Part shown: in pieces, positions 2,317-21,375 of the stretch
Position numbering within the stretch: position 1 is the first letter of the stretch
Layout of the letters: each line of letters opens with the position of its first letter
Origin: Pedococcus sp. 5OH_020
GTDB taxonomy: Bacteria > Actinomycetota > Actinomycetes > Actinomycetales > Dermatophilaceae
Assembly (NCBI RefSeq): GCF_027812955.1
Contig: NZ_JAPYZV010000008.1
Coordinates: forward strand, 62,001 to 126,000
Direction: 5' to 3'
Length of the DNA: 64,000 nucleotides
The notes under the pieces: generated by a model
The model's input: the letters and a program-made list of their open reading frames with translations, nothing else
What the model was told of the DNA's origin: nothing
Database searches by the model: none
Position numbers and translations under genes: made by a program

Positions 2317-3068
2317 GCCGCACGACCGTGGGTGGACGCGAGGATCTCGGCGAGATGGACGGGGCGCACGCCCGTCCTGAGGCGGGACAGGCCTCCGCCG
2401 ATGTGCATCAGGCAGGACGCGTCCCCGGCAGTGACGACCTCCGCCCTGGTCGTCAGTACCGCCGACATCTTGTCGGCCAGCATCGCCGTCGAGGTCTCGG
2501 CGTTCTTGACCGCGAACGTGCCCCCGAACCCGCAGCACGAGTCCGCGGCCGGCAGCTCGACCAGGTCGATCCCGCGCACCGCCCGCAGCAGGCGCAGCGG
2601 GGCATCGCCGACGCCCAGCAGCCGCAGCGAGTGGCACGTCGGGTGGTACGTCACGCGGTGCGGGTAGGACGCTCCGACATCGGTCACTCCAAGCACCTCC
2701 ACCAGCAGCTGCGACAGCTCGAAGGTCCTGGCTGCCACGGCCTCCGCCCGCATGGCCAGCACCTCGTCACCGGCGCGTCGCGCCAGCATCGCGTGCTGAT
2801 GCCGCACCGACCCCGCACACGACCCCGACGGCGCCACGATGGCCTCGGACCCGTCCGCCAACGCCTCCTCGAACACCTCCACATGGTGTCGCACGAGTCC
2901 GACCGCGTCCCGTTGGTACCCGGTGTTGGTGTGCATCTGGCCACAGCAGGTCTGGGCCTGCGGGAAGACCACCTCGTGCCCGAGCCGCTCCAGCACCTGC
3001 ACCGTGGCACGGCCGACGTCAGGGAACAGGACGTCCCCGAGGCAGGTCACGAACAACGCGATCCTCAC
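2313..3068 (-). CDS. lutA: LutA-like CCG-domain heterodisulfide-reductase-type subunit
   Basis: A 251-residue protein with two cysteine-rich CCG domains: TCCGQMH near residue 45 and DSCCGFGGTFA near 185, the signature of LutA/GlpC-like subunits. It is the first gene of lutABC, which oxidises L-lactate to pyruvate. The GTG start at 3068 follows AGGAAGG with 5-nt spacing. A longer frame upstream has no ribosome site and low-complexity sequence. The gene is divergent from the Gfo/Idh gene at 3288. The 219-bp gap between them holds two LacI-type operators, so lactate oxidation may be co-regulated with the sugar genes. Confidence 0.94.
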   Translation of the reverse strand: MRIALFVTCLGDVLFPDVGRATVQVLERLGHEVVFPQAQTCCGQMHTNTGYQRDAVGLVRHHVEVFEEALADGSEAIVAPSGSCAGSVRHQHAMLARRAGDEVLAMRAEAVAARTFELSQLLVEVLGVTDVGASYPHRVTYHPTCHSLRLLGVGDAPLRLLRAVRGIDLVELPAADSCCGFGGTFAVKNAETSTAMLADKMSAVLTTRAEVVTAGDASCLMHIGGGLSRLRTGVRPVHLAEILASTHGRAA

Positions 3069-3195
3069 GTCGACCTTCCTTTCACAGCCCTGGCCACGCC
3101 CGTGTCCGGTGCCCTTACCCCCACCCAACCCTAGAGGAGGGTGGCTTGGCGCGCCGCCTGGGCCCGCTGCATCCTGTCACTCGCGCAGGTCGGGA

Positions 3196-3209
3196 GGCAA
3201 GCGGTTTCC
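3196..3209. promoter_or_regulatory. LacI-type operator, distal copy
   Basis: GGCAAGCGGTTTCC fits the palindromic LacI-family pattern GGnAAnCGnTTnCC with a central CG. It is the exact reverse complement of the 3263-3276 site. The two copies flank a candidate promoter, their centres are 67 bp apart, and both lie between the divergent lutA and Gfo/Idh genes, which suggests looping repression of one or both directions. Confidence 0.7.
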
Positions 3210-3228: not shown

Positions 3229-3276
3229 TTGTCCCGCTGGCAGAAGACGGTTACCGTAGTCGGGAAACCGCTTGCC
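3229..3276 (+). promoter_or_regulatory. Promoter with LacI-type operator at the start site
   Basis: A TTGTCC hexamer (3229-3234) and TACCGT (3252-3257), 17 bp apart, form a plausible sigma-70-type promoter. The operator GGAAACCGCTTGCC occupies 3263-3276, where transcription would start, and AAGGAG follows at 3278-3283 before the ATG at 3288. Repressor bound here would block the promoter. Confidence 0.6.
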
Positions 3277-3287
3277 TAAGGAGAACA

Positions 3288-4442
3288 ATGACGACGACCC
3301 AGCGCCTCGGAATCATCATGAACGGCGTCACCGGCCGGATGGGGTACCGGCAGCACCTCGTGCGCTCCATCCTGGCGATCCGCGACCAGGGCGGGGTGGA
3401 GCTGAGCGACGGCAGTCGCGTCCAGGTGGACCCGGTCCTGGTGGGGCGAAGTGCCGACAAGCTCCAGGAGATCGCCGAGCGCCACGGTGTCGCGCGATGG
3501 ACCACGGACCTCACATCGGCCCTGGCGAACCCCGAGGACGGCGTCTACTTCGACGCCCAGCTCACCACGGTGCGCGAGAAGGCCATCCTCGAGGCGATCG
3601 CCGCCGGGAAGGACATCTACACCGAGAAGCCGATCGCGGACGACGTGGAAGGCTCCCTGCGCCTGGCCCGCGCGGCACGTGCCGCGGGCGTGCGCAACGG
3701 GGTCGTCCACGACAAGCTCTACCTGCCGGGCCTGCTCAAGCTGAAGCGGCTCATCGAGGGCGGGTTCTTCGGCCGGATCCTGTCGGTCCGGGGGGAGTTC
3801 GGCTACTGGGTGTTCGAGGGTGACTGGCAGCCTGCCCAGCGGCCGAGCTGGAACTACCGCAAGGAGGACGGCGGCGGCATCACCACCGACATGTTCTGCC
3901 ACTGGAACTACGTCCTGGAGAACCTGTTCGGGTCGGTCGAGGCCGTCACGGCGAAGACGGTCACGCACATCCCGCAGCGTTGGGACGAGTATGGCAAGCC
4001 GTACGACGCGACGGCGGACGACGCCGCGTACGGCATCTTCGAGCTCGCCGGCGGCGTCGTGGCTCAGCTCAACTCCTCCTGGACCACGCGCGTGCACCGC
4101 GACGAGCTGGTCGAGTTCCACGTCGACGGCACGGAGGGCAGTGCGGTGGCAGGCCTGCACCAGTGCGTGGTCCAGCACCGCTCGCAGACCCCCAAGCCGG
4201 TCTGGAACCCGGACCTCGAGGAGACCGAGCGCTACCGAGAGCAGTGGCAGCCCGTGCCCGCCAACACGGCGTTCGACAACGGGTTCAAGGCCCAGTGGGA
4301 ACAGTTCATCAGGTCGCTGCACGGTGACGGTGAGCACCCCTACGACTTCCTCGCCGGGGTGCGGGGCGTCCGGCTCGCCGCGGCCGGCCTGCAGTCTTCG
4401 GCGGAAGGACGCCGCATCGCACTCGAGCCGGTGGCGCTGTGA
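3288..4442 (+). CDS. Gfo/Idh/MocA-family oxidoreductase
   Basis: A 384-residue NAD(P)-dependent sugar dehydrogenase-like protein. The N-terminal Rossmann loop is the variant GIIMNGVTGRMG, and the family lysine motif appears as EKPIADD near residue 117. ATG 3288 is preceded by AAGGAG. An upstream extension in the same frame crosses the operator and is rejected. It is the first gene of a four-gene operon (dehydrogenase, DUF993, TIM barrel, glycerate kinase) with 4-bp overlaps, repressed in all likelihood by a LacI protein. Substrate unknown. Members of this family oxidise ring hydroxyls of sugars, inositols or glycosides, and the neighbours suggest an oxidised sugar as intermediate. Confidence 0.88.
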   Translation: MTTTQRLGIIMNGVTGRMGYRQHLVRSILAIRDQGGVELSDGSRVQVDPVLVGRSADKLQEIAERHGVARWTTDLTSALANPEDGVYFDAQLTTVREKAILEAIAAGKDIYTEKPIADDVEGSLRLARAARAAGVRNGVVHDKLYLPGLLKLKRLIEGGFFGRILSVRGEFGYWVFEGDWQPAQRPSWNYRKEDGGGITTDMFCHWNYVLENLFGSVEAVTAKTVTHIPQRWDEYGKPYDATADDAAYGIFELAGGVVAQLNSSWTTRVHRDELVEFHVDGTEGSAVAGLHQCVVQHRSQTPKPVWNPDLEETERYREQWQPVPANTAFDNGFKAQWEQFIRSLHGDGEHPYDFLAGVRGVRLAAAGLQSSAEGRRIALEPVAL

Positions 4443-5599
4443 CGCGGGTGAGGCTGCCCGGTAGGCAGACGGGGATCGAGGACTACACGGTCGTCAGCCG
4501 AGGTGGGCTGCCGGTGCCTCAGGGGACGCCGCGGTCGCGGGTGGCCTTCGCGGCGGCCCACGTGGTCGCCGACCCGCTCGGCGACAACACGCCCGGCATG
4601 CCGGCGGTCGTCGACTGGGACTCGACCCTGGCGTTCCGCCGACACCTGTGGTCCTACGGGTTCGGCCTTGCCGAGGCGATGGACACGGCGCAGCGCGGAA
4701 TGGGCTTGGACTGGCCCACGACCCAGGAGCTGGTGTCGCGCTCGGCCGCAGAGGCCGCCTCCTTGGGGGCCCGCATCGCAGCGGGGGCCGGGACCGACCA
4801 CGCTCCGGCTGGCCTCGACGGTGTCTCGGACGTCCTGGCGGCCTACGAGGAACAGCTGGAGTTCGTCGAGTCCACCGGAGCACAGGCGATCGTCATGGCG
4901 AGCCGGCAGCTGGCCCGGGTGGCGCGAGGCGTCGACGACTACCGGGCGGTGTACGACAAGCTCCTGGCGCAGGCGCAGGCGCCGGTCATCCTGCACTGGC
5001 TCGGCACGGCCTTCGACCCGGCGCTGCAGGGGTACTGGGGCTCGCCGGACGTCGCCACGGCGACGGCGGCCTTCCTGGACCTCGTCCGGGAGAACGCGGA
5101 TCGGGTCGACGGGGTCAAGGTCTCGCTGCTCGACGCCGACCACGAGAAGGCGCTGCGGGCCGCCCTGCCGGCGGGAGTCCGCCTGTACACCGGAGACGAC
5201 TTCAACTACCCCGAGCTCATCGCCGGGGACGGCACCCACCACAGCGACGCCCTGCTCGGCATCTTCGCGGCCATCGCACCTCTGGCGTCGCAGGCCCTGC
5301 ACGCGCTCGACCGCGGGGACGACGCCGCGTACGCCGCTGCCTTCGAGCCCACGCTGCCGCTGGCGCGCCACGTGTTCGCCGCGCCGACGTTCTACTACAA
5401 GACGGGGATCGCCTTCCTGGCCTGGCTCAGCGGTATGCAGCCAGGGTTCACCATGGTGGGGGGGCTCCAGAGCGCCCGCAGCATCCGGCACCTGGCCGAG
5501 ACCTTCCGGCTCGCCGACCAGGCGAACATGCTGCCCGACCCGGAGCTCGCCGTCCGGCGGATGGAGTCGCTCCTCGACGTCGCGGGGCTGCCGCGATGA
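4439..5599 (+). CDS. DUF993 family protein (dihydrodipicolinate-synthase-like barrel)
   Basis: A 386-residue protein recognised as a DUF993 member, distantly related to the DapA/aldolase superfamily. Visible stretches include AFAAAHVVADPLGDNTPG near the N-terminus, VILHWLGTAFDPALQGYWG near residue 180 and VDGVKVSLLDADHE near 220, the last placing a lysine where DapA-like enzymes form a Schiff base. GTG 4439 overlaps the preceding stop (GTGA). Function is not established. In this operon an aldolase or retro-aldol step on a keto-sugar produced by the dehydrogenase is reasonable, but it is inference. Confidence 0.8.
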   Translation: MTRVRLPGRQTGIEDYTVVSRGGLPVPQGTPRSRVAFAAAHVVADPLGDNTPGMPAVVDWDSTLAFRRHLWSYGFGLAEAMDTAQRGMGLDWPTTQELVSRSAAEAASLGARIAAGAGTDHAPAGLDGVSDVLAAYEEQLEFVESTGAQAIVMASRQLARVARGVDDYRAVYDKLLAQAQAPVILHWLGTAFDPALQGYWGSPDVATATAAFLDLVRENADRVDGVKVSLLDADHEKALRAALPAGVRLYTGDDFNYPELIAGDGTHHSDALLGIFAAIAPLASQALHALDRGDDAAYAAAFEPTLPLARHVFAAPTFYYKTGIAFLAWLSGMQPGFTMVGGLQSARSIRHLAETFRLADQANMLPDPELAVRRMESLLDVAGLPR

Positions 5600-6453
5600 C
5601 CGCCGCCCAAGGCCCCGCCGTGAGGGCGGACCTTCGGCGCCTGTCGCTGAACCAGAAGACGACGAGCTCGTGGTCCCTGGCCGAGGCCGTCGACGGCTGC
5701 GTCCGCGCGGGCCTGGAGTCCATCGGGGTATGGCGAGAGCCGCTCGCGGACCTGGGCGTTGAGAAGGCCTCGGCCCTCATCTCGGACGCGGGGCTGCGGG
5801 TCTCTTCGCTGTGTCGCGGCGGCTTCCTCACGGGGGAGGGTCCGACGGCCCAGGGGGCGGCGTTCGAGGAGAACGTGCGCGCGATCGAGGAGGCAGCGGC
5901 GCTCGGGACGGACTGTCTGGTCATGGTCGTAGGCGGGCTGCCGGAAGGATCCCGGGACCTGCCCGGCGCTCGCGGCCGGGTGGCGGAGGGGATCGCGCGG
6001 CTCGCGCCGATCGCCGCTGACCACGGCGTACGGCTGGCCCTGGAACCGATGCACCCGATCTTCACGGCCGACCGGGGCGTGCTCGCCACGCTGGGGGAGG
6101 CCCTCGACTTGGCCGAGCAGTTCCCGCCGGAGCAGGTCGCTGTGGTGGTGGACACCTTCCACGTGTGGTGGGACCCGCAGGTCGAGGAGCAGATCGAGCG
6201 CGCGGCGGGACGGATCGCGAGCTTCCAGGTCTGCGACTGGATCACCCCCCTCCCCGCGGACAGCCTGCTCTCCCGCGGGATGATGGGAGACGGCCACATC
6301 GACTTCACGCGGCTCCTGGGCCTCGTGACGGCCGCCGGGTACACCGGCGACATCGAGGTGGAGATCTTCAACGCAGAGGTCTGGGCGCAGGACCCGGACG
6401 AGGTCCTGGCCACGATGAAGGAGCGCTACCACCGCTGCGTGCTGGGGCTCTGA
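5596..6453 (+). CDS. Xylose-isomerase-like TIM-barrel sugar isomerase/epimerase
   Basis: A 285-residue AP_endonuc_2-type TIM barrel. The metal-site positions of the family are visible: E in LALEPMHP, D and H in VVDTFHVWWDP, H in GDGHIDF and E in EVEIFN. ATG 5596 overlaps the DUF993 stop (ATGA). Homologues isomerise or epimerise sugars, and some eliminate or hydrolyse 3-keto-glycosides made by Gfo/Idh/MocA partners. Its place between such a dehydrogenase and glycerate kinase suggests it rearranges the oxidised intermediate. Exact reaction unknown. Confidence 0.85.
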   Translation: MTAAQGPAVRADLRRLSLNQKTTSSWSLAEAVDGCVRAGLESIGVWREPLADLGVEKASALISDAGLRVSSLCRGGFLTGEGPTAQGAAFEENVRAIEEAAALGTDCLVMVVGGLPEGSRDLPGARGRVAEGIARLAPIAADHGVRLALEPMHPIFTADRGVLATLGEALDLAEQFPPEQVAVVVDTFHVWWDPQVEEQIERAAGRIASFQVCDWITPLPADSLLSRGMMGDGHIDFTRLLGLVTAAGYTGDIEVEIFNAEVWAQDPDEVLATMKERYHRCVLGL

Positions 6454-6455
6454 CC

Positions 6456-7562
6456 GTGCGTGTGCTGATCGCCCCGGACTCCTTCAAGGGGTCGGTCGGG
6501 GCAGCGGAGGCCGCCGCAGCCATCGCCCGCGGCTGGCTCGCCGTCCGGCCTCGCGACGAGGTGGTGCAGGTGCCCCTGGCCGACGGTGGCGAAGGCACGC
6601 TCGAGCTGCTCCAGGCGCGGCATCCGAAGGCCGTCGGGCATGCGCTGGTGGTCACGGGGCCGGATGGGAGGCCGGTCCAGGCGTGCTGGCTGCAGCTGCC
6701 CGACGGCACCGCGTTCGTCGAGCTGGCACGGGCCTCGGGCCTTCCCCTCATGCGGCGGCCAGACGCTCTCGGGGCGCACACCGTGGGTTTCGGGCAGCTG
6801 CTGGCGGCCGCGGCCGCCCATCCGGCGACACGGCGGATCGTGGCGGCCGTCGGCGGGTCGGCCTCCACGGACGGGGGCTCTGGTGCGCTCCGTGCGCTCG
6901 GAGCGCGATGGCTGGCCGGGTCCAGCGAGGTCGGGCTCGGCGGTGCAGGTCTGGCGCAGTGCGACGCAGTGGACGTCCGCGGGCTGGTCCCCGCCCCGTC
7001 CGGCGGCGTGACGGTCCTCGTGGACGTCGACGCACCCTTGCTGGGGCCGCGCGGCGCGGCCGCCCAGTTCGGGCCGCAGAAGGGCGCGACGCCGGCCCAG
7101 GTGGCGGAGCTCGAGGTGGCCCTCACGCGCTTCGCGTCGGTCTGCCGGACCGCGGGCGTGGGCAGCGCCGCTGACGTCCTCGAGCCGGGGACCGGCGCGG
7201 CGGGCGGCACCGCCTACGGCCTCATGGCCCTGTGGCAGGCGTGCCTGATGCCGGGCTCCGCCCTCCTCGGCACGATGGTCGGTCTGGCGGACGAGCTGGA
7301 TCGGGCGGACGTCGTGGTCACCGGCGAGGGGCGCCTGGACGAGCAGTCGACCGGTGGCAAGGTCGTCGGGCACGTCCTGGAGCTCGCTGGTCGAACAGGC
7401 ACGCCAGTCTTGGCCTGTGTCGGGTCCGCCTCGGGCCGGCTTCCCGCCTCGCTGGCCGACTGCAGGACGCTCACTGCCCTCGCAGGCTCCACCGCGGCGG
7501 CGATGGGTGACGCGGCCCACTGGCTCGAGGTGGCAGCCGGACAGTTGGCGGAGGGCAGGTAG
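6456..7562 (+). CDS. Glycerate kinase
   Basis: A 368-residue GlxK/GarK-type glycerate kinase, phosphorylating D-glycerate (usually to 2-phosphoglycerate) for lower glycolysis. Family motifs: IAPDSFKGSVGAAEAA at the N-terminus, PLADGGEGT near residue 45, and VVTGEGRLDEQSTGGK near 290. GTG 6456 lies 2 nt after the upstream stop. A longer frame starting inside the TIM-barrel gene is a shadow. It indicates that the unassigned pathway of this operon ends in glycerate. The product class is secure. The 2- versus 3-phosphate outcome cannot be read from sequence. Confidence 0.93.
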   Translation: MRVLIAPDSFKGSVGAAEAAAAIARGWLAVRPRDEVVQVPLADGGEGTLELLQARHPKAVGHALVVTGPDGRPVQACWLQLPDGTAFVELARASGLPLMRRPDALGAHTVGFGQLLAAAAAHPATRRIVAAVGGSASTDGGSGALRALGARWLAGSSEVGLGGAGLAQCDAVDVRGLVPAPSGGVTVLVDVDAPLLGPRGAAAQFGPQKGATPAQVAELEVALTRFASVCRTAGVGSAADVLEPGTGAAGGTAYGLMALWQACLMPGSALLGTMVGLADELDRADVVVTGEGRLDEQSTGGKVVGHVLELAGRTGTPVLACVGSASGRLPASLADCRTLTALAGSTAAAMGDAAHWLEVAAGQLAEGR

Positions 7563-7568
7563 GGTGCC

Positions 7569-7586
7569 TGGGAAAGGGGTTGCCCA
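7569..7586. promoter_or_regulatory. Candidate LacI-type operator, second family
   Basis: TGGGAAAGGGGTTGCCCA is an imperfect dyad similar to the sites at 3263, 10779 and 21432. It lies 7 bp after the glycerate kinase stop and 94 bp before the next ATG, in the only gap between two runs of overlapping genes. It probably controls the second operon (7680-10737), which encodes a LacI regulator. Confidence 0.5.
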
Positions 7587-7679
7587 TCAGGTAGGGTCGT
7601 CGACGCGCGACGCGCGGACGTGGGAGCCGCGAGGTCGCCACGGCGTCGAGGCGAGGCGAAGAGGGACCGGAGGCTGTTG

Positions 7680-8840
7680 ATGGTCGCACCACGAGTGGCG
7701 CTGCTCGGCGCGCATGGACACGGCGAGGTCCACCTGCGCAACATCAAGCGGCTGGCCTTGGCGGGCCGGGCCACCCTCGCGGGGGTGGCGGACCCCCGGC
7801 CACCGACCGACACGCTTCGTGACCTGGTCGGGCCCGGAACTGCGTGGGTGGCGGACGCCCGTACGCTGCTCGAGGAGCAACGGCCGGACGTCACGGTGGT
7901 CTGTACGCCCATACCGTTGCACCTCTCGCACGCGCAGGCTGCCCTGGCGGTCGGCTCCGCCCTGCTGCTGGAGAAGCCCCCGACCTCGACCCTGGCGGAC
8001 TTCCATGCCTTGGCGGCCTCCGTGACGGCCAGCGGCCTTGCCTGCCAGGTGGGCTTCCAGGCGCTCGGGTCGCATGCTCTCGAGGCGTTGTGCGGCGTAG
8101 TCGCCTCCGGGCAGCTCGGCACGGTCAGCAGCATCGGGGTGCTGGGCGAATGGGTCCGGGACGCGAGCTACTTCAGCCGCGCCCCCTGGGCGGGCCGACG
8201 TGAGGTGGACGGGACCCCGACGCTCGACGGTGCGGTCAGCAACCCGTTCGCGCACGGCGTCGCCGCCGCTCTCGCCTTGGACGACAGCCAGGAGGAGCAG
8301 GACCTGGTCTCGGTGGAGGCCGACCTCCTGCACGCCAACCCAGTGGAGACCGACGACACCTCCACGGTCCGGATCCGGACGCGGCGCGGCACGGTCATCA
8401 CCGTGGCGGTCACCTTGTGCGCGCAGGAGCCGCGGGAGCCTCGGCTCCTGGTCCGCGGGGACCGGGGCCACGCCGAGCTGGTGTACACGACGGACGAGCT
8501 GGCGATCGAGACCGGCGGGGTGACCAGCAATACCCGGACTGAGCGGACCGACCTTCTCGAGGACCTGCTGGACCACCTCGAGGACCCCTCCCACCCGCTC
8601 ATCTCGCCGCTCGCCCGCTCCGCCGCGTTCATGGCCGTGATGGAGCAGGTGCGCACCACGCCGACGAGGGCGATCGACTCCCGGTGGACCCAGCGGGCGC
8701 ACGTCGCAGACCTCGTCGCAGTGACGGTGCCGAACGTCCAGGAGACGCTGCGTAGCTGCGTGGAGTCCTCGCTCCTGCTCCGGGAGACGCCCACGCCGTG
8801 GGCCCGGGAGACCGTCGAGCTGTCCGGAGGTGCGCGATGA
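7680..8840 (+). CDS. Gfo/Idh/MocA-family oxidoreductase
   Basis: A 386-residue dehydrogenase-like protein with a modified nucleotide loop, LLGAHGHGEVH, and the lysine motif EKPPTSTLADF near residue 102. ATG 7680 is preceded by CCGGAGG at proper spacing. A 20-codon longer reading has no ribosome site. It heads a three-gene operon with a LacI regulator and a DUF6807 protein, the members overlapping by 4 bp. The central region is divergent from the other two Gfo paralogues here, so a different substrate or a non-catalytic role is possible. Confidence 0.85.
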   Translation: MVAPRVALLGAHGHGEVHLRNIKRLALAGRATLAGVADPRPPTDTLRDLVGPGTAWVADARTLLEEQRPDVTVVCTPIPLHLSHAQAALAVGSALLLEKPPTSTLADFHALAASVTASGLACQVGFQALGSHALEALCGVVASGQLGTVSSIGVLGEWVRDASYFSRAPWAGRREVDGTPTLDGAVSNPFAHGVAAALALDDSQEEQDLVSVEADLLHANPVETDDTSTVRIRTRRGTVITVAVTLCAQEPREPRLLVRGDRGHAELVYTTDELAIETGGVTSNTRTERTDLLEDLLDHLEDPSHPLISPLARSAAFMAVMEQVRTTPTRAIDSRWTQRAHVADLVAVTVPNVQETLRSCVESSLLLRETPTPWARETVELSGGAR

Positions 8841-9850
8841 CTGTCACCCTGGCCGATGTGGCGGAGCAGGCCGGTGTCTCGATCGCCACAGCGTCGCGGG
8901 TGGTGAACGGCAGCACGCGCGTCGTGGGGGAGGAGCTGCGCGCCAAGGTCCTGGCCACGGCCACCGCGCTCGGCTACCGGGCGAACCCCCACGCGCAGGC
9001 GGTCGCGCGCGGCTCGAGCACCGTCGCCGGTCTCGTGATCCACGACATCACGGACCCCTACTTCTCCGCCATCGCCGCGGGGGCCCTCGAGGTCGCGGAG
9101 TCGCGCGGCCTCATCGTGTCCCTGGGTACCTCGGTCGGAGGCGTGGAGCGCGAGCTCGAACATGTCTCCCTGCTCCGTGCGCAGCGCGCTCGAGGACTCA
9201 TCCTCGTGGGCAGTCGCACGTCGAACCGCCAGCGGACCAGGGCCCTGGCCGCCGAGCTCGCCGCCTTCACGAGCGAGGGGGGCCGCGTCTCGTGCGTCAG
9301 CCAGAACCGCCTCGGAGTCGACACGGTCGTCCCGGAGAACCGCGCCGGCGCGGCTGCCCTCGCGAACCACGTCCTCGACCTGGGGCATCGCGAGCTCGGG
9401 ATCCTCGCGGGGCCGGCGAACCTCCTGACGGCCTCGGACCGGGCGCGCGGCTTCAAGGGGGAGGTCGAGCGGCGAGGTGCTCGGGCCCGCGTCTTCGCCA
9501 GCGACTTCACCTGGGAAGGGGGGTTCGAGGCGGCGACCCAGGCCGCGCAGGCGGCATCCCGGCCCACGTGCCTGCTGGCGGTGAACGACGTGATGGCCAT
9601 GGGCGCGCTCGCCGCCCTCCGTTGTCTGGGCCTGAGCGTCCCCTGGGAGGTGTCCGTCGCCGGCTTCGACGACGTGCCGGCGCTGCGTGACGTGCTGCCC
9701 GCTCTGACCACCGTCCGGCTGCCCTTGACCGAGATGGGGCGACAGGCAGCGCGCCTGGCGTTCGTCGCGGAGCCCAGTGCGCACCCGCGCATCACCAGGG
9801 TGTCGGGTGAGGTCGTGGTCAGGGACAGCACGGCCCCTCCTCCGGCGTGA
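8837..9850 (+). CDS. LacI-family transcriptional regulator
   Basis: A 337-residue repressor. The N-terminal helix-turn-helix reads LADVAEQAGVSIATASRVVN, followed by the hinge and a periplasmic-binding-protein-like effector domain (GLVIHDITDPYFSAIAAGA, then VAGFDDVPAL near residue 275). ATG 8837 overlaps the upstream dehydrogenase stop. It sits inside the operon it probably regulates. Best guess is that it reads the GGGAAAnnGnTTnCCC-like operators at 3196, 3263, 7569, 10779 and 21432, because those precede its own and neighbouring units. The assignment is inference. The effector is unknown. Confidence 0.93.
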   Translation: MTVTLADVAEQAGVSIATASRVVNGSTRVVGEELRAKVLATATALGYRANPHAQAVARGSSTVAGLVIHDITDPYFSAIAAGALEVAESRGLIVSLGTSVGGVERELEHVSLLRAQRARGLILVGSRTSNRQRTRALAAELAAFTSEGGRVSCVSQNRLGVDTVVPENRAGAAALANHVLDLGHRELGILAGPANLLTASDRARGFKGEVERRGARARVFASDFTWEGGFEAATQAAQAASRPTCLLAVNDVMAMGALAALRCLGLSVPWEVSVAGFDDVPALRDVLPALTTVRLPLTEMGRQAARLAFVAEPSAHPRITRVSGEVVVRDSTAPPPA

Positions 9851-10737
9851 TCGCTCTGTCGGTGGACGACACCGAGGTCGCCGTCCTGCACTTCGGGGAG
9901 ACCCTGCCGACCACGCTGTCGCCCAGGCCGTACCTGCACCCTCTACGGACGCTGTCGGGATCGCCTGTGACGGGCTTCTCCCCGCGGGACCATCCGCATC
10001 ATCTGGGGCTCAGCGTGGGCATTCCGCTCGTCGACGACACCAACTTCTGGGGTGGGCCGACCTACCTGCCGCAGGAGGGGTACGTCTGGCGGGACGACCA
10101 TGGCCGCCAGCGAGTGGACCGGTGCGGGTCGGCTCCGGACCGGGTCTCGCTGGGTCTCAGCTGGCTGGACAAGGCCGGCGCTGTGCTTCTGGACGAGGAG
10201 CGCGACATCGAGGTCCTGCCTGGGCGAGCGCGTGGCGACGCCTGGAGGCTGCGCCACCGGTCCGTCCTGCGCAACCCGGGCCGCGAAGCGGTGACGCTCA
10301 GCGGCCCCGGAGCCCGGGGCAGGGCGGGTGCGGGGTACGGCGGCGTCTTCTGGCGCGGTCCTGCGGAGGCGACCGTCGCCGAGGCGCAGAGCCCGACCGC
10401 CCGCGGCGAGAATGCCCTCAACGGCCGCCACGCACCGTTTCTCGTGGTGCGCTCCGGGGTAGCGGACGGGGGTGGCACCTGGACCCTGGGGCTGCGCGAC
10501 CTGGCGGCGACGCCGGAGCCGTGGTTCCTCCGCCTCGAGGAGTACGTCGGTGCCGGCCCCGCGCTGGTCGGCTCCCGCCCACGCGTGCTGGCCCCCGGGG
10601 AAGAGCTGCCTTGCGGCCTCGCCATCGTCGTGGCCGACGGCGCGCTGTCCCTCGCCCAGGTGCAGGACGAGCTGCTCGAGCTCGGTGGGCCCGACCCTTA
10701 CCGGGCACCGGGTGGTGCGCCCCAGGGTGGGGCGTGA
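9847..10737 (+). CDS. DUF6807 (PmoA-like) family protein
   Basis: A 296-residue protein of the family once annotated as methane-oxygenase PmoA-like, now DUF6807. The typical pattern FSPRDHPHHLGLSVGIPLVDD followed by NFWGG is present near residues 44-70. It has no signal peptide or membrane segment, so it is not a methane monooxygenase subunit. GTG 9847 overlaps the LacI stop. Members are repeatedly found beside Gfo/Idh/MocA and TIM-barrel genes in carbohydrate loci, as here. The His-rich N-terminal motif could bind metal or sugar. Function not established. Confidence 0.8.
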   Translation: MIALSVDDTEVAVLHFGETLPTTLSPRPYLHPLRTLSGSPVTGFSPRDHPHHLGLSVGIPLVDDTNFWGGPTYLPQEGYVWRDDHGRQRVDRCGSAPDRVSLGLSWLDKAGAVLLDEERDIEVLPGRARGDAWRLRHRSVLRNPGREAVTLSGPGARGRAGAGYGGVFWRGPAEATVAEAQSPTARGENALNGRHAPFLVVRSGVADGGGTWTLGLRDLAATPEPWFLRLEEYVGAGPALVGSRPRVLAPGEELPCGLAIVVADGALSLAQVQDELLELGGPDPYRAPGGAPQGGA

Positions 10738-10778
10738 CCGATGCACCGCGGAGCCGGGCCGCGCTCCTCCAGCCGTGC

Positions 10779-10861
10779 TGGGAAAGTGCTTTCCCTTTTA
10801 TGCGCCAGCCTCTTGACTCCCGCGCGAGGCCCCCGTACATTCGCTGAATGAACCGATTCAA
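10779..10861 (+). promoter_or_regulatory. Promoter flanked by two different LacI-type operators
   Basis: Upstream dyad TGGGAAAGTGCTTTCCC (10779-10795), then a near-consensus promoter TTGACT (10813-10818), 17-bp spacer, TACATT (10836-10841), then ATGAACCGATTCAA (10848-10861), which sits on the expected start site and matches the rhamnose-type operator at 26250. The ABC transporter operon begins downstream, with GAAAGGGA before ATG 10902. Two operator types imply control by two repressors. Confidence 0.8.
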
Positions 10862-10901
10862 TCGGTACGGGAAAGCCTCTCAACGACGAAAGGGACCACT
10901 C

Positions 10902-12194
10902 ATGGGAATCCAGCAACTTTCGAGGCTCCGGGTGGTAGCCCTCGGAGCGGTGGCTGCGGCGGTCGTGCCGCTCGCAGCCTGCGGCGGAGGCAGTGGGAGT
11001 AGCGCCGGCAACGGCGGCAAGACCACGCTCCGCTTGGTCTGGTGGGGCAACGAGGACCGGGCCAAGGCGACGAAGTCCGCCATCGAGCTCTTCCAGAAGA
11101 AGCACCCGAACGTGACGGTGCAGACCGAGTTCTCGGCGTACGACGCCTACTTCCAGAAGCTCTCCACTCAGCTCGCCGGCGGCGGCGCACCGGACATCGT
11201 GCAGATCGACCGCCCCAACTTCGGCGACTACGCCCGGCGTCACGTGCTCAAGGACCTCACGCCCTACGTCGGCAAGACGATCCACACCAACGACATCGAC
11301 CCCAAGCTGCTTGCGGCCGGCAAGGTGCAAGGCCAGCTCTACGCCCTGCCGGGTGGCCAGCTGACCCAGTCGCTGGTGTACGACCCCGCCGCCTGGAAGA
11401 AGGCGGGCGTCAACCCGCCGCCGGCCAGTGGGTGGACCTGGGACGAGTTCACCGCCACCATGAAGAAGCTGGGCGCCAGTGGCACTCCCGGGACGACCGA
11501 CTTCGGCTGGGCCATCGACTGGTTCGAGGTCTGGCTGGCGCAGCAGGGCAAGCAGACCTACACCCCTGACGGCAAGCTCGGCTTCACCGAGGCCGACCTC
11601 GCGCAGTTCTGGGGCACCCTCGCCGACCTGCGCAAGAGCAAGGCCGTGTCGGCGCCTTCGGCCACCACGAAGATGGACGGCTCGATGCCCAACTCCGCCT
11701 ATGTCAACGGGCAGGCGGCCTCGGAGATCAACTACGACTCCAGCCTCACCGCGTACATCACCGCCAAGCCGGGCACGGCGGCGGCGCCCCTTCCCTCGGC
11801 CAACGGCAAGACGGGCATGAGCGCCCTGCCCACGGTGACCTGGGGCCTGACCAACCGGTCCAAGAACGCGGACGTCGCGGCACAGCTGATCGACTTCCTG
11901 GTGAACGACCCGGAGGCGGGCAAGATCCTCGGTGCCACTCGCGGTCTGCCGCCGAACCAGTCGGTTCGCCAGTCGGTGGCCGGCAGCGTCAGTGGTCCGA
12001 GCAAGGCTGTGTTCGACTACGAGAGCAGCGTCGCCAGCCTCGTGACGACCGAGGCGCCGGTCTGGCCGGTCGGCTCGGCCGAGATCAAGCGCAACTTCCA
12101 GCAGGTGTACGACGACGTCATCTTCGGCAAGACCTCCGTCCAGGCGGGAGCCAAGCGCGTCGTCGACGACGCCCACCAGAGCCTGGGCGGCTGA
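10902..12194 (+). CDS. ABC transporter sugar-binding lipoprotein
   Basis: A 430-residue extracellular solute-binding protein (family 1, MalE-like). A signal peptide ends in the lipobox PLAAC near residue 28, followed by a Gly/Ser linker and the mature domain starting TTLRLVWWGNEDRAKA. ATG 10902 follows GAAAGGGA. An in-frame extension to 10848 is just translated operator sequence. It is the first gene of the 10902-17261 operon. Two permeases follow, but no ATPase gene is present, as is usual for actinobacterial CUT1 importers that share an MsiK-type ATPase. The ligand is likely a pectin-derived or rhamnose-containing oligosaccharide by context. Confidence 0.93.
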   Translation: MGIQQLSRLRVVALGAVAAAVVPLAACGGGSGSSAGNGGKTTLRLVWWGNEDRAKATKSAIELFQKKHPNVTVQTEFSAYDAYFQKLSTQLAGGGAPDIVQIDRPNFGDYARRHVLKDLTPYVGKTIHTNDIDPKLLAAGKVQGQLYALPGGQLTQSLVYDPAAWKKAGVNPPPASGWTWDEFTATMKKLGASGTPGTTDFGWAIDWFEVWLAQQGKQTYTPDGKLGFTEADLAQFWGTLADLRKSKAVSAPSATTKMDGSMPNSAYVNGQAASEINYDSSLTAYITAKPGTAAAPLPSANGKTGMSALPTVTWGLTNRSKNADVAAQLIDFLVNDPEAGKILGATRGLPPNQSVRQSVAGSVSGPSKAVFDYESSVASLVTTEAPVWPVGSAEIKRNFQQVYDDVIFGKTSVQAGAKRVVDDAHQSLGG

Positions 12195-12205
12195 GGAGAC
12201 ACATC

Positions 12206-13138
12206 ATGGACCTGCATCCTGACCTCGCGGAGGCGGCCCTGCGGCTGCCACCCACAGACCTGACCGACGTTGCTGCGGCGCGCGGGACGAACGCCGAACG
12301 GCGTCCGGTGGCCCCGTACCGGCGGGCCGGCGAGGCCAAGGTGGAGGACGTGGTCATCGACGGCCCCGGTGGCGCCCTGGCGGTGCGGGTGTACCGCCCC
12401 AGCGCCGGTGTCACCGGGCCGACGGTGCTCTGGGTCCATGGCGGGGCCTTCATCATGGGGACTCTCGACTCGTCCGACGCGGTGTGCTCGCAGCTGGCCG
12501 TGGAGGCAGGTGCCCTCGTCGTCAACGTGGACTACCGCCTCGCGCCGGAGCATCCCTACCCCGCCGGGGTGGAGGACTCGTATGCCGCACTGGAGTGGCT
12601 GGCGCAGGAGGCTCGTGCCCTCGGTGGCTCGGCGGAGCAGCTGGTCGTGGCAGGGAGCAGTGCCGGCGGCTGCATCGCTGCGGCCGTGGCGCTGCGCGCT
12701 CGTGACCAGGGCGGCCCCCGGCTGGCGCGCCAGGTGCTGGTCCAGCCCGTGCTCGACCACCGGGGCCAGACCCCCTCGGCGACCTCCATCGTCGAGAGCC
12801 CGGTCTTCACCGCCACCTCGAACAGGATCATGTGGCGGACCCACCTCGGCGGTGGGCCGGCCGACGCCTACGCCTCTCCCGCCCTCGCCGAGGACGTCGG
12901 CGGCCTCCCGCCGGCGTACATCACAGCGGCCGCCCGCGACCCGCTGCGGGACGAGGCCATCGCCTATGCCTCCCGGCTGCTCCAGGCCGGCGTGGACGTC
13001 GAGCTGCATGTCTACCCCGGCGCCTTCCACGGGTTCGACTCGCTCGTGCCCGAGGCGCCCCTGTCCCAGCGTGCGAACGACGACCTGGTCCGTGCTGTCG
13101 CGCAGACCGTGCACGAGCTCGAGGGGGCTTCGCGATGA
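12206..13138 (+). CDS. Alpha/beta-hydrolase of the hormone-sensitive-lipase type
   Basis: A 310-residue cytoplasmic esterase-like enzyme. Oxyanion motif VHGGAFIMG near residue 76, nucleophile elbow GSSAGG near 152, acid and base supplied by the C-terminal part (GAFHGFD near 275). ATG 12206 has GAGGAGAC upstream and lies 11 bp after the binding-protein gene. It is embedded in an ABC importer operon with a Gfo/Idh gene, so deacetylation or de-esterification of the imported saccharide is plausible: rhamnogalacturonan is naturally acetylated. The exact substrate is not visible. Confidence 0.88.
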   Translation: MDLHPDLAEAALRLPPTDLTDVAAARGTNAERRPVAPYRRAGEAKVEDVVIDGPGGALAVRVYRPSAGVTGPTVLWVHGGAFIMGTLDSSDAVCSQLAVEAGALVVNVDYRLAPEHPYPAGVEDSYAALEWLAQEARALGGSAEQLVVAGSSAGGCIAAAVALRARDQGGPRLARQVLVQPVLDHRGQTPSATSIVESPVFTATSNRIMWRTHLGGGPADAYASPALAEDVGGLPPAYITAAARDPLRDEAIAYASRLLQAGVDVELHVYPGAFHGFDSLVPEAPLSQRANDDLVRAVAQTVHELEGASR

Positions 13139-14505
13139 GCCGCTCGCCCCGTCGCGCCGCGGTGGTCGGCCTCGGATCCCGGGCCACCATGTGGGCCGAG
13201 GGCCTGGCGGACGGTGGCAGGCTGGTGGCCTTCTGCGACGAGAACCGGCACCGGATGCGCGTCCAGGAGCAGTGGCTCCGCGAAAGCCACCCAGGGCTCG
13301 AGCTCACCTGCTGGCAGCCGCACGAGCTCCTCGACATGATCGTCCGCGAGCAGGTCGACACGGTGGTCGTCTGCACCCCGGACCACACTCACGAGGCCTT
13401 CGTCGTGCAGGCGGTGGAGGCCGGCTGCGACGTCATCGTCGAGAAGCCGCTCACCATCACCGAGGACGCCTGCCGCTCCATCGTGGAGGCACAGCGACGG
13501 ACCGGACGCTCGATCCGCGTGGCGTTCAACTACCGGTACAACCCCGTGCACGAGCAGGTGCGTGACCTCATCGCGGACGGCGCGATCGGGGAGGTCGGGT
13601 CGGTGCACTTCGAGTGGGCGCTGGACCTGCACCACGGCGCTGACTACTTCCGGCGGTGGCACCGCGACAAGGCCAGCTCGGGCGGGCTCCTCGTCCACAA
13701 GAGCTCGCACCACTTCGACCTGGTGTCGTGGTGGCTCGGCGCCTCGCCCGAGCGGGTGTTCGCCGAGGGTCGGCTCTTCTACTACGGCGCAGCCGGGGCA
13801 GAGCGAGGGCTCGACCACGGTGACCTGCGCGAGCGCCGTGACGCCGGCCTGAAGCCCTTCGACCTCGACCTCTCGGCCTCGGACCGGCTCCGGGCCCTCT
13901 ACCTCGAGGCCGAGGGGGAGCAGGGATACCGGCGGGACCGTAACGTCTTCGGCCCGGGGATCACCATCGAGGACGACATGGCAGTTCTCGTCCGGTACGA
14001 CACCGGAGCGACGATGACGTACCACCTCACGGCGTACTCACCGTGGGAGGGCTATCGCGTCACCTTCAACGGCAGCCAGGGCCGCCTCGAGCTCGAGGTC
14101 GAGGAGAGTGCCTGGGCTGCGCCGCAGGCTGGGGCGATGGCCGGCACCATCGCGGGCGCGGAGCCGCCGACCCCCAGGGCCCGGCTGGTCCACCGTCCGA
14201 TGTGGCGTGAACCGGTCGAGGTCGCGGCCCGGCCAGGCGTCGGCGCTCACGGGGGCGGAGACGCCCGCATGATGGCCGAGCTCCTGCAGGCCACCGACGA
14301 GGCCGACGGCCGGAGCGCCACCTTCGTGGACGGCGTCCGCGCCGCGATGACGGGCATCGCGGCCAACCACAGCATCGCCACCCAGCTGCCGGTCCCCGTC
14401 GGAGCCGTGCTGAGGGAGCTGACCGGCAGCGCCACCCATACCAGGGGCAATCCCACCCCTGGCCCAGAGCTCGTCCACGCCCGTGGCGGGAAGGAACGGC
14501 CATGA
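13135..14505 (+). CDS. Gfo/Idh/MocA-family oxidoreductase
   Basis: A 456-residue member, longer than usual, with the N-terminal loop AAVVGLGSRATMW, the lysine motif EKPLTITED near residue 102 and SGGLLVHKSSHHFD near 182, where the histidine is the usual catalytic partner. ATG 13135 overlaps the hydrolase stop. It is the third such dehydrogenase within 11 kb, and its closest relatives by layout are the oligosaccharide-associated type encoded inside ABC operons. It likely oxidises the imported sugar or a glycoside. Substrate unknown. Confidence 0.88.
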   Translation: MSRSPRRAAVVGLGSRATMWAEGLADGGRLVAFCDENRHRMRVQEQWLRESHPGLELTCWQPHELLDMIVREQVDTVVVCTPDHTHEAFVVQAVEAGCDVIVEKPLTITEDACRSIVEAQRRTGRSIRVAFNYRYNPVHEQVRDLIADGAIGEVGSVHFEWALDLHHGADYFRRWHRDKASSGGLLVHKSSHHFDLVSWWLGASPERVFAEGRLFYYGAAGAERGLDHGDLRERRDAGLKPFDLDLSASDRLRALYLEAEGEQGYRRDRNVFGPGITIEDDMAVLVRYDTGATMTYHLTAYSPWEGYRVTFNGSQGRLELEVEESAWAAPQAGAMAGTIAGAEPPTPRARLVHRPMWREPVEVAARPGVGAHGGGDARMMAELLQATDEADGRSATFVDGVRAAMTGIAANHSIATQLPVPVGAVLRELTGSATHTRGNPTPGPELVHARGGKERP

Positions 14506-15452
14506 GCACCCAGACTGTGGCTCAGCCGTCGGTCGAGAGCAGGAGCCCGGCGCCGCCGGCTCCGAAGAGCCGGCGCACCGAGCGATCCGCGTACCTGTTC
14601 CTGGCTCCCTGGCTCGTCGGGGCCCTGGTCCTGACGATAGGGCCGATGCTGGCGTCCCTGTTCCTGTCCTTCACCGACTACGACCTGTTCACCTCGCCGC
14701 ACTGGGTCGGTCTGGCGAACTACCGCCAGATGTTCACGGCCGACCAGAGCTTCCGCAGCTCGGCTGCGGTGACCGGCAAGTTCGTGCTGCTCTCGGTACC
14801 GCTCAAGCTGGCCCTCGCCCTCGCGGTCGCCCTCCTGCTCAACCGCCCCCGACGCGGACAGGGCATCTACCGGTCGCTGTTCTACGCTCCGAGCCTCCTG
14901 GGGGCCAGTGTGGCGGTGGCCCTGGTGTGGCGAGTGCTGTTCAGCGACAAGGGCACCGTCGACCGGCTGCTGTCCGCCGTCGGCATCCACACCGGGGGCT
15001 GGATCAGCAACCCCGACTACGCGCTGCTGACCCTCGTGGCGCTGGCCGTGTGGCAGTTCGGCGCTCCGATGGTCATCTTCCTCGCGGGGCTGAAGCAGAT
15101 CCCACGGGACCTGTACGACGCCGCCGCAGTCGACGGCGCCGGCCGCATCCGCACCTTCTGGTCGGTGACGGTGCCCATGCTGACGCCTGTGCTGTTCTTC
15201 AACCTCGTGCTGGAGTCGATCCACGCGTTCCAGTCCTTCACGAGCGCCTTCATCGTCAGCGGTGGCCGTGGCGGTCCGAGCGACTCGACCCTCTTCTACA
15301 CGCTGTACCTCTACCAGCGGGGCTTCGCGGACTTCCGGATGGGCTACGCCGCCGCGATGGCGTGGGTCCTCCTGGTCGTCATCGCGGTGCTGACCGCGCT
15401 GATCTTCCGTTCCTCCCGATCCTGGGTCCACTACGCCGGAGATGACCAGTGA
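14502..15452 (+). CDS. ABC sugar transporter permease (MalF-like)
   Basis: A 316-residue membrane protein with a Pro/Ala-rich cytoplasmic N-terminus and six predicted transmembrane segments starting SAYLFLAPWLVGALVL. The cytoplasmic EAA-type loop that contacts the ATPase reads YDAAAVDGAGRIRTFWSVT near residue 205. ATG 14502 overlaps the dehydrogenase stop (ATGA). It forms the channel with the next gene product and takes substrate from the lipoprotein at 10902. Confidence 0.93.
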   Translation: MSTQTVAQPSVESRSPAPPAPKSRRTERSAYLFLAPWLVGALVLTIGPMLASLFLSFTDYDLFTSPHWVGLANYRQMFTADQSFRSSAAVTGKFVLLSVPLKLALALAVALLLNRPRRGQGIYRSLFYAPSLLGASVAVALVWRVLFSDKGTVDRLLSAVGIHTGGWISNPDYALLTLVALAVWQFGAPMVIFLAGLKQIPRDLYDAAAVDGAGRIRTFWSVTVPMLTPVLFFNLVLESIHAFQSFTSAFIVSGGRGGPSDSTLFYTLYLYQRGFADFRMGYAAAMAWVLLVVIAVLTALIFRSSRSWVHYAGDDQ

Positions 15453-16327
15453 TGACTGCCGTACCCGTCGGTGAGAGCACCGTTGCCAAGATCAGGCGTC
15501 CCGCGTCCCGGGTGCTGTGGCACCTCATGGTCGTCCTCATCCTCATCGTCCTGCTGTACCCCGTCGTGTGGCTCGTGGGCACGTCGTTCAAGCCCGCCGA
15601 GGAGGTCCTCACGAACATCGGTGTCCTGCCGACGCACCCGACCGGCGCCAACTACGGCTCGGTGCTCCAGGGCGTGGCCGGCTACAGCCTCTGGACGTAT
15701 GTCGGGAACTCGCTGATCGTGTCCGTGGGCGCCGTGCTGGGCAACATCCTGACGTGCTCGCTGGCCGCCTACGCCTTTGCGCGCCTGCGGTTCCGCGGAC
15801 GCTCGGTGTTGTTCGGGTTCATGATCGCGACGATCATGCTTCCCCTGCACGTGGTGCTGATCCCGCAGTACATCATCTTCCAGAAGCTCGGCCTGGTGAA
15901 CACGTTCCTGCCGATCATCCTGCCGAAGTTCCTGGCGACCGACGCCTTCTTCGTGTTCCTCATGGTGCAGTTCATCCGCGGCCTGCCGCGCGAGCTCGAC
16001 GAGGCCGCGACGATCGACGGCTGCGGGCCCGTCCGGATCTTCCGCTACGTCGTCATGCCGCTCCTGCGGCCGGCGCTCATCACGACGGCGATCTTCACCT
16101 TCATCTGGACCTGGAACGACTTCTTCACCCAGCTCATCTACCTGAACGACCCGTCGAAGTACACGCTGCCGCTGGCCCTGCGGATCTTCGTCGACCAGAC
16201 CAGCCAGTCGGCCTTCGGCCCCATGTTCGCCATGTCGGTCCTGTCGCTGGTGCCGATCGGCGTCTTCTTCCTGGCGTTCCAGCGCTACCTCGTCGAGGGT
16301 GTCGCGACGTCGGGACTCAAGGGATGA
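15449..16327 (+). CDS. ABC sugar transporter permease (MalG-like)
   Basis: A 292-residue inner-membrane permease with six predicted transmembrane segments. The EAA loop is clear: DEAATIDGCGPVRIFRYVVM near residue 188. GTG 15449 gives a GTGA overlap with the first permease. ATG 15452, one codon downstream, is an equally possible start. It pairs with the 14502 product. A separately encoded ATPase is required. Confidence 0.93.
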   Translation: MMTAVPVGESTVAKIRRPASRVLWHLMVVLILIVLLYPVVWLVGTSFKPAEEVLTNIGVLPTHPTGANYGSVLQGVAGYSLWTYVGNSLIVSVGAVLGNILTCSLAAYAFARLRFRGRSVLFGFMIATIMLPLHVVLIPQYIIFQKLGLVNTFLPIILPKFLATDAFFVFLMVQFIRGLPRELDEAATIDGCGPVRIFRYVVMPLLRPALITTAIFTFIWTWNDFFTQLIYLNDPSKYTLPLALRIFVDQTSQSAFGPMFAMSVLSLVPIGVFFLAFQRYLVEGVATSGLKG

Positions 16328-16932: not shown

Positions 16933-16940
16933 GAGGGCCG

Positions 16941-17261
16941 ATGCACAGGATCTGCTTCGTCCTACAGGTCAAGCCGGACAGGGTCGCGGAGTACCGCGAG
17001 CGGCACCGTGACGTGTGGCCGTCCATGCAGGACGCGCTGAGCGCCGCGGGGTGGGGCAACTACTCCCTGTACCTGCGCGACGACGGCCTGCTGGTCGGCT
17101 ACCTCGAGACCCCGAACTGGGAGTCGGCTCAGCGCGAGATGGCGCTCACCGAGGTCAACGCGCGATGGCAGGAGTCGATGAAGGACTTCTTCGTCAACCT
17201 CGAGGGGCAGCACCCCGACGAGGCGATGTCCCCGCTACCGGAGATCTTCCACCTCGACTGA
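16941..17261 (+). CDS. rhaM: L-rhamnose mutarotase
   Basis: A 106-residue RhaM-type enzyme that interconverts alpha- and beta-L-rhamnopyranose, supplying the anomer used by rhamnose isomerase. Family pattern: CFVLQVKPDRVAEYRERH, VWPSMQDALSAAGWGNYSLY, then GYLETPN. The length is standard. ATG 16941 follows GAGAGGG. It closes the ABC operon, tying the importer to rhamnose. Its last 27 bp overlap the convergent MFS gene (17235). Confidence 0.93.
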   Translation: MHRICFVLQVKPDRVAEYRERHRDVWPSMQDALSAAGWGNYSLYLRDDGLLVGYLETPNWESAQREMALTEVNARWQESMKDFFVNLEGQHPDEAMSPLPEIFHLD

Positions 17262-21360: not shown

Positions 21361-21375
21361 TGAGAAGCCTCCACG

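Follow-up and report, generated by a model that had tools for sequence, protein, structure and literature searches.

Known systems and the DUF993 locus

Established routes for uronates are the Kdu, uronate isomerase and oxidative pathways. Lyases leave unsaturated galacturonate, for which KduI-KduD-KdgK-KdgA is the known pathway, and the galactarate/glucarate pathway of Escherichia coli is GarL-GarR-GarK. Here, we report a computational analysis of 64,000 nucleotides from Pedococcus sp. 5OH_020 (the window, i.e., the whole stretch analyzed; G000:C31:62001-126000, from a 4.43 Mb genome), in which genes for a Gfo/Idh/MocA oxidoreductase (GfoA), a DUF993 protein and a xylose-isomerase-like TIM barrel protein (TIM) are followed by a glycerate kinase (GK) gene. 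Our main result is a repeated predicted operator link to pectin and rhamnogalacturonan breakdown: through a shared LacI-type operator, the trio is predicted to be co-regulated with pectate and rhamnogalacturonan lyases in the window's genome and six others. We assign a probability of roughly 0.6 to the reading that the locus belongs to a LacI-controlled pectin regulon, in which the trio and GK would act on galacturonate-type lyase products and yield D-glycerate together with another three-carbon compound.

Compared with the Kdu pathway, the locus would likewise serve the products of pectate and rhamnogalacturonan lyases, with the isomerase, oxidoreductase, aldolase order proposed here. It differs in its enzyme families and in ending at GK, and a PF04962 search of the window's genome found no KduI, only IolB. 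The E. coli gar pathway also ends with a GarK-type GK, but no scanned gene of the operon matches GarL or GarR, and DUF993 has the fold of the DHDPS/N-acetylneuraminate lyase (NAL) superfamily (YagE, DapA, KdgD). From the members of that superfamily, to which it is 11–17% identical in the alignments shown, DUF993 differs by a His for Tyr on strand 5 and by MDTAQR for GTTGE after strand 2. In Sinorhizobium meliloti, SMc04130-SMc04133 include solved, uncharacterized relatives of DUF993 (4dnh, SMc04132) and TIM (3ju2, SMc04130), for which no published function was found; SMc04132 and SMc04133 have negative values in a table on PhaR, as given in an excerpt of that report (PMC12542648). Levoglucosan and 3-keto-glycoside operons resemble the locus in combining Gfo/Idh oxidoreductases with sugar-isomerase-like TIM barrels, and the excerpts of the two reports mention no aldolase-fold enzyme or GK (PMC7676230, PMC10628242).

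A literature search, with most subscription papers outside its reach, found no paper naming DUF993 or PF06187 and no relevant use of the solved-structure codes; the DUF993 structure has been solved since 2012 (4dnh). It also found no paper joining pectate/rhamnogalacturonan lyase, the LacI family and GK (earlier regulon predictions may exist in subscription papers), and none joining 5-keto-4-deoxyuronate with GK, tartronate semialdehyde and pectin.

Recurrence of the trio and of its operator

We examined 127 DUF993 loci: 80 from genome contigs, which are the best 80 of 592 confirmed loci, i.e., close relatives of the window protein; 35 from genomes of the class of Mesorhizobium G396 (the alphaproteobacterial set); five distant actinobacterial loci; and seven plasmid loci picked by hand from the annotated rows of 147 plasmid records with a match. 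Neighbor clustering based on open reading frames (ORFs) suffered from the choice of antisense ORFs in GC-rich loci and yielded DUF993 itself in only 97 of the 127 loci; the final counts were made by tblastn. GfoA lay directly upstream of DUF993 in 75 of the best 80 loci and TIM directly downstream in 77, so that the gene set singled out in the original prediction does recur in a neighborhood search. In the alphaproteobacterial set, each gene held its adjacent place in 24 of 35 loci; GfoA was upstream in all five distant actinobacterial loci and TIM downstream in four of them, and the plasmid loci gave 4/7 and 3/7, respectively. GfoA-DUF993-TIM is an ordered trio in most of the 127 loci, far beyond chance. 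DUF993 occurred in 29 of 396 genomes of the window's phylum, 35 of 385 of the class of Mesorhizobium G396 and 2 of 299 of the phylum of Halalkalibacter G397 (center genomes counted), and it has a single match in the whole genome of the window.

A larger set of varying completeness, comprising two further Gfo/Idh oxidoreductases (GfoB and GfoC), DUF6807, a binding protein and permeases, recurs in seven loci (L168, L030, L065, L051, L015, L172, and L180). GfoB and DUF6807 share a single open frame in two Micrococcaceae and two Umezawaea loci (L213:6073-8151, L030:12145-14172, L209:940-2841, and L230:8523-10409), which ties DUF6807 to a Gfo/Idh substrate; GfoB of L215, L218, and L220 has no DUF6807 part. 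A scan of viral sequences for DUF6807 found nothing. Other neighborhoods were also observed. Of 40 further loci, 15 (L151, L172, L174, L180, and others), all of the alphaproteobacterial set, have an enolase-superfamily gene of 460–490 residues within the trio operon or close to it; the L151 copy matches MR_MLE_C at 34 bits. Two alphaproteobacterial plasmid variants (L003:542-5928 and L008:7083-12463) combine DUF993 with a GMC oxidoreductase, a Dabb protein, LacI and a MOFRL-type GK, without GfoA or TIM. In Leekyejoonella antrihumi (L009:6414-18222), the trio and GK are surrounded by genes for two sulfatases, two kinases (a ROK kinase and a PfkB-type hexose-phosphate kinase), a tagatose-bisphosphate-type aldolase and a protein resembling sugar-phosphate isomerases/deaminases, a set that would fit a sulfated amino-sugar/uronate polymer as the substrate.

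We then consider the operator. The palindromic pattern GGNAANSNNTTNCC was derived by eye from sites of the window itself. Counting both strands, it has nine matches there, where shuffles predict 0.30. Genome-wide, its matches number 17 forward and 19 reverse, versus 9 and 9 for the reversed pattern, and six operator places cluster between C31:61936 and C31:83446. The first of these, outside the window, is upstream of a PL4-like protein (PF14683, 98 bits; N terminus signal-like by eye). Because the pattern was drawn from the window's own sites, its independent test is recurrence in other genomes. In 25 of the 70 genome-contig loci tested, the 320 bases upstream of GfoA hold a slightly looser form, often GGAAAGCGCTTKCC, compared with 1% of random windows from those loci; the co-regulation by motif claimed in the original prediction thus gains support from both the window and other genomes. 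When 25 trio genomes were searched (9 with GGNAAGCGCTTNCC and 16 with the tighter GGMAAGCGCTTKCC), a site was present in 23, and the reversed control gave 0–2 per genome. A second palindrome, ACCGATTCAATCGGT (window 10852-10866), stands directly before the binding-protein gene; it is unlike the LacI-type operator and is perhaps a site for another regulator.

Thirteen of the 25 genomes are, by genus, Micrococcaceae. Non-trio sites, 12 in total, occur in eight of these. All 12 were fetched, and eight, one in each genome, precede GK on a contig other than that of the trio (L203, L211, L212, L214, L216, L217, L219, and L221) and four precede GfoB (L213, L215, L218, and L220); the remaining five have a single site, upstream of GfoA. 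The ORF as drawn begins before the operator for GK of L214, L216, L217, and L219 and for GfoB of L218 and L220; in L214 the GK family match begins 69 residues in, so a later start is likely there. Around the GfoB sites are GH78 rhamnosidases (L215 and L218), a PcRGLX protein and GH42 (L215), GDSL esterases (L213, and L218 by eye), and permeases 55–59% identical to those of the window (L213 and L220).

Eight further genomes have non-trio sites, and 27 of their 31 sites were examined, all but four in Umezawaea endophytica G1093. Lyases were found at eight of the 27: pectate lyases at L206 and L207 (Micromonospora echinofusca), at L222 (two divergent genes), and at L223 and L224, and PL11 rhamnogalacturonan lyases at L209, L227, and L230. 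Relatives of RhaEW and RhaB adjoin the PL11 gene of L227. A ninth site (L225) precedes a GDSL esterase, whose link to pectin is a guess. Operators linked to a lyase or esterase thus occur in six genomes besides the window's own, and the presence of pectate and rhamnogalacturonan lyases in the operator-linked set points to pectin. Two candidates were rejected. Rhamnose alone is not a convincing substrate for the trio, which is already adjoined by a rhamnose route (RhaM, RhaI-like, RhaB-like, RhaEW, and LutABC), and some operator sites precede pectate lyases. The PcRGLX exo-rhamnogalacturonan lyase is not a constant partner, being present in only 8 of 50 genomes, namely the window's own and 7 of 16 trio-only genomes, with 0 of 16 DUF993-negative genomes (groups defined by fetched locus content; the count excludes the genome of L215, where PcRGLX adjoins GfoB).

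GK lay within the fetched stretch in 18 of the 127 loci (a raw count): 8/80 of the best 80, 2/35 alphaproteobacterial, 2/5 distant actinobacterial, and 6/7 plasmid loci. Twelve are of the GarK type (PF02595) and six of the MOFRL/DUF4147 type (representatives checked), and the presence of two kinase families for one reaction suggests that glycerate is a product of the pathway. GK, which the original prediction had placed within the chain, is by these sequence counts a looser but real partner of the trio: the two families and the operator-linked GKs on other contigs speak for it, and it is not part of a constant core.

Proposed reactions and their alternatives

The AlphaFold model of the DUF993 protein (mean predicted local distance difference test, pLDDT, 94.9) has the TIM-barrel fold of the DHDPS/NAL superfamily, with DHDPS, YagE and NAL as relatives by Foldseek and VIA-align; a profile comparison against three sequences of the DHDPS family gave a weak result (2.5% probability). 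K227, invariant in 70 sequences, lies on the expected strand, beta6 (223-229), and in the model is the candidate Schiff-base lysine, its equivalence to the superfamily lysine being one of topology. These features support the aldolase-like character that had been proposed for DUF993, now specified as a class I aldolase fold. The invariant H186 lies on beta5 (183-188), where the superfamily has its catalytic tyrosine (equivalence by topology only), and AMDTAQRG follows beta2 in place of the GTTGE carboxylate motif. Both GTTGE and the tyrosine have roles in the known 2-keto-acid aldolases of this fold, so that any exact reaction proposed for DUF993 is tentative.

We infer the substrate, the order of the steps and every reaction as follows. 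The locus would belong to a pectin (rhamnogalacturonan I) regulon under LacI control, in which secreted lyases would cut the backbone, the ABC importer would take up the lyase products, and rhamnose would pass through RhaM/RhaI/RhaB/RhaEW and LutABC. The galacturonate-type unit would be processed by GfoA-TIM-DUF993-GK, with TIM and GfoA supplying an isomerization and a redox step, DUF993 splitting the carbon chain, and one half becoming D-glycerate, which GK would phosphorylate. On balance, our tentative preference is for a Kdu-like chemistry, which in this exact form we rate well below an even chance: TIM, instead of KduI, would convert 5-keto-4-deoxyuronate to a 2,5-diketo acid; GfoA, instead of KduD, would convert this to 2-keto-3-deoxygluconate; DUF993 would yield pyruvate and D-glyceraldehyde; and the latter would become D-glycerate and, through GK, 2-phosphoglycerate. 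Aldehyde dehydrogenases near DUF993 and GK (L002, L007, L008, and L167) would fit glyceraldehyde oxidation, yet such genes are common. The last two steps of the scheme in the original prediction fit this outline (aldolase fold and glycerate end), and the pectin link was not anticipated there. The wider proposal, which we rate at a little under an even chance, is that DUF993 represents a new class of DHDPS-fold carbon-carbon lyase with a His/MDTAQR active site and, together with GfoA and TIM, makes up a KduI-independent and so far undescribed pathway that takes pectin-derived (unsaturated) galacturonate to D-glycerate in several bacterial phyla and is run in actinobacteria by a previously unrecognized LacI pectin regulator.

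Two other chemistries would leave the pectin substrate in place. In the first, GfoA would oxidize C1 of the (unsaturated) uronate to give 5-keto-4-deoxyaldarate, DUF993 would split this in the manner of GarL to pyruvate and tartronate semialdehyde, and TIM would be a hydroxypyruvate/tartronate isomerase, followed by reduction and GK. This oxidative scheme resembles the final steps of the E. coli gar pathway, and TIM does match hydroxypyruvate isomerase (33 bits), but it has a higher score (45 bits) for 5-keto-L-gluconate epimerase. The scheme shares its intermediate with KdgD, which adjoins the larger set in L168, as do KdgD and a glucarate dehydratase (786 bits, cut-off 829) in L030; neither enzyme was seen in the other five larger-set loci. 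The enolase-superfamily genes near the trio would also fit. However, the operon has no reductase, and the KdgD-type DHDPS-fold proteins of L168 and L030 retain GTGE, which DUF993 lacks; we regard this chemistry as unlikely. In the second, saturated galacturonate would be converted to tagaturonate by TIM as a uronate isomerase, DUF993 would split a 5-keto-aldonate into dihydroxyacetone and tartronate semialdehyde, and GfoA would reduce the latter to D-glycerate for GK. This scheme gives each of the four genes a step, with dihydroxyacetone as the sole leftover, and a carboxylate far from the ketone would explain the missing GTTGE. In the plasmid variants, the GMC oxidoreductase (L003 and L008) could supply the keto acid, and a reductase of L008 annotated as 3-ketoacyl-ACP reductase could supply the reduction; three genomes also have KduI. 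Nevertheless, lyases, whose products have unsaturated ends, are the depolymerases recognized at operators; with saturated galacturonate as the substrate, the KdgD/GudD found next to the larger set would be redundant; and we know of no Gfo/Idh tartronate semialdehyde reductase. These points make the saturated route a rather poor prospect.

Several observations weigh against the pectin-to-glycerate reading as a whole. The GfoA-upstream operator was not found in 45 of the 70 genome-contig loci and was present in 1/5 distant actinobacterial, 0/25 alphaproteobacterial, and 0/4 plasmid loci. No pectin gene was recognized at 18 of the 27 sites, where most genes were unscanned: one Leekyejoonella site stands before a transporter gene with weak similarity to sugar-acid carriers (TIGR00893, 112 bits, cut-off 395), and among the others are sites within unrelated genes, at genes for ThuA-type proteins and beside an integrase. 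The PL4 call is a single accessory domain (PF14683), and PcRGLX was found in 0/7 other larger-set and 0/10 partial-set genomes. A PF04962 scan of 16 trio genomes found KduI in three (G1093, G1094, and G1120); the other 13 gave IolB-type proteins only, a fragment, or no match (IolB type assigned through NCBIfam for L253 and otherwise by 46–69% identity to the IolB of the window's genome). Four of the seven genomes with lyase-linked operators, the window's included, show no KduI; in the other three, its presence rules out a simple replacement of the Kdu route by the trio. DUF993 lacks the GTTGE and tyrosine of the aldolases that share its fold, the window's operon has no glyceraldehyde dehydrogenase, and an aldehyde dehydrogenase also lies near the trio in four of the best 80 loci without GK (L021, L022, L023, and L071). 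The alphaproteobacterial loci, often with an enolase-superfamily gene and with no operator, argue against a pectin-only role. Additionally, by eye, the trio has xylose genes on its flanks in Arthrobacter and ribose genes in Streptomyces, a relative on pAO1 is reportedly linked to D-xylose, and a gene next to that relative carries an IEA (electronic annotation) note pointing to D-xylose.

These varied neighbors, with the sulfatases and amino-sugar-type genes of L009 and the enolase-superfamily genes and SsuA-type binding proteins of Alphaproteobacteria, would suit a general sugar or sugar-acid module (pentoses and glycosides), in which one trio chemistry acts on keto-sugars of many sources and pectin lyases are linked in some lineages only. 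On the other side, the operator targets in Micrococcaceae are GK and GfoB, with no pentose genes, and pectin lyases are operator targets in six other genomes; we consider the general module doubtful. A further alternative is an oxidation-elimination-hydration-reduction set for glycoside cleavage, like the levoglucosan and Agrobacterium OGE operons. Gfo/Idh and sugar-isomerase-like TIM genes are present, the levoglucosan dehydrogenase model gives 64 bits for GfoA and 67 for GfoC, and GfoC matches a glucuronide-3-dehydrogenase chain at 61 bits; the model scores are about a tenth of its cut-off of 650. Such a set does not need the aldolase-fold enzyme or GK, and the trio has one TIM gene, so that it is improbable as an overall account, and a levoglucosan/3-keto-glycoside operon was rejected for the trio (GfoB reaching 24 bits against the same equivalog cut-off). 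A glycoside cleavage scheme may apply to GfoB, GfoC and DUF6807.

Layout of the locus and significance

The features of the locus are summarized in Table 1. Pfam confirmed the gene families at the coordinates given in the original prediction, and the compact, translationally coupled chain it described is supported by overlaps of 4 bases between GfoA and DUF993 and between DUF993 and TIM and by a gap of 2 bases between TIM and GK. A second coupled unit consists of GfoB, LacI and DUF6807, and a third of the binding protein, esterase-like gene, GfoC, two permeases, 202-aa ORF and RhaM. The extent of 3288-14505 originally assigned to the system was too small: the importer unit with RhaM continues to 17261, and PcRGLX and the PL4-like gene outside the window have the same kind of site. 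Relatives of LutA and LutB also adjoin the trio in L048 and L066, the L066 relative of the LutB-like gene matching TIGR00273 LutB. In TIM, E150, D186, H189, D214, and E256 are invariant in 49 sequences.

Table 1. Positions of genes and LacI-type operator sites in the window.
Feature	Position	Strand	Remarks
LutC-like (LUD domain)	161..850	-	PF02589, E 5.8e-21; end of LutABC operon (L-lactate oxidation), divergent from DUF993 operon
LutB-like	790..2637	-	ORF bounds, true start probably shorter; 62-64% identity to trio-adjoining genes of L048, L066
LutA-like	2313..3128	-	Presumably LutA family; 61-67% identity to genes in L048 and L066
Operator GGCAAGCGGTTTCC	3196..3209		Between LutA and GfoA
Operator GGAAACCGCTTGCC	3263..3276		Upstream of GfoA
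GfoA, Gfo/Idh/MocA oxidoreductase	3288-4442	+	Closest solved chain 3oqb ("Oxidoreductase"), 513 bits
DUF993 protein	4439-5599	+	PF06187, 597 bits; DHDPS/aldolase fold
Xylose-isomerase-like TIM barrel	5596-6453	+	PF01261; solved relatives 7vpf, 3ju2 (SMc04130), 3qc0
GK, GarK type	6456-7562	+	PF02595, 320 bits
Operator GGAAAGGGGTTGCC	7571..7584		Upstream of GfoB
GfoB, Gfo/Idh oxidoreductase	7680..8840	+	ORF from 7620, likely start 7680; some relatives fused to DUF6807
LacI-family regulator	8837..9850	+	ORF from 8798, likely start 8837
DUF6807 protein	9847..10737	+	PF14100, 177 bits
Operator GGAAAGTGCTTTCC	10781..10794		Upstream of importer operon
Sugar ABC substrate-binding protein	10902..12194	+	Weak carbohydrate-binding-protein matches, best 50 bits
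Abhydrolase_3 esterase-like protein	12206..13138	+	Pfam
GfoC, Gfo/Idh oxidoreductase	13132..14505	+	Weak matches, including glucuronide-3-dehydrogenase chain 8tdi, 61 bits
ABC permease 1	14502..15452	+	PF00528
ABC permease 2	15449..16327	+	PF00528
ORF, 202 aa	16324..16932	+	No Pfam match
RhaM, L-rhamnose mutarotase	16863..17261	+	PF05336, 105 bits; ORF bounds, likely start near 16941
PcRGLX-like exo-rhamnogalacturonan lyase, three domains	18622..21468	-	PF19501, PF21345, PF21346; N terminus signal-like by eye
Operator GGAAAACCCTTTCC	21433..21446		22 bases within longest PcRGLX ORF; upstream only if gene starts later
Rhamnulokinase-like (RhaB)	21502..22926	-	TIGR02627, 434 bits, under cut-off 528
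RhaEW, rhamnulose-1-phosphate aldolase/short-chain dehydrogenase	22930..24966	-	TIGR02632, 1032 bits, above cut-off
L-rhamnose isomerase-like (RhaI-like)	25019..26263	-	PF06134, 25.6 bits, barely above cut-off 22

Elsewhere in the window, a gene for a GH32 fructan hydrolase-like protein of 922 aa (29129-31897) has no operator match nearby. On another contig, a catabolic cluster (L198, G000:C32:8000-27900) has a third-position GC below that of the other stretches fetched from the same genome. It holds a DHDPS-family gene and a GH88-like gene and, by eye, a KDPG-aldolase-like gene, a CoA-transferase, MaoC-like and PhyH-like genes, and an importer. The window's genome has one weak GH88/105 match (42 bits), on another contig.

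DUF993, for which the literature search found no function, gains a candidate substrate class and a candidate product. DUF6807 is linked to the system as well, through the GfoB and GfoB-DUF6807 genes that carry this operator, and a named regulator with its operator can help to annotate pectin regulons in actinobacteria. If the proposal is true, soil bacteria would have another route by which to use the acidic sugar of pectin.

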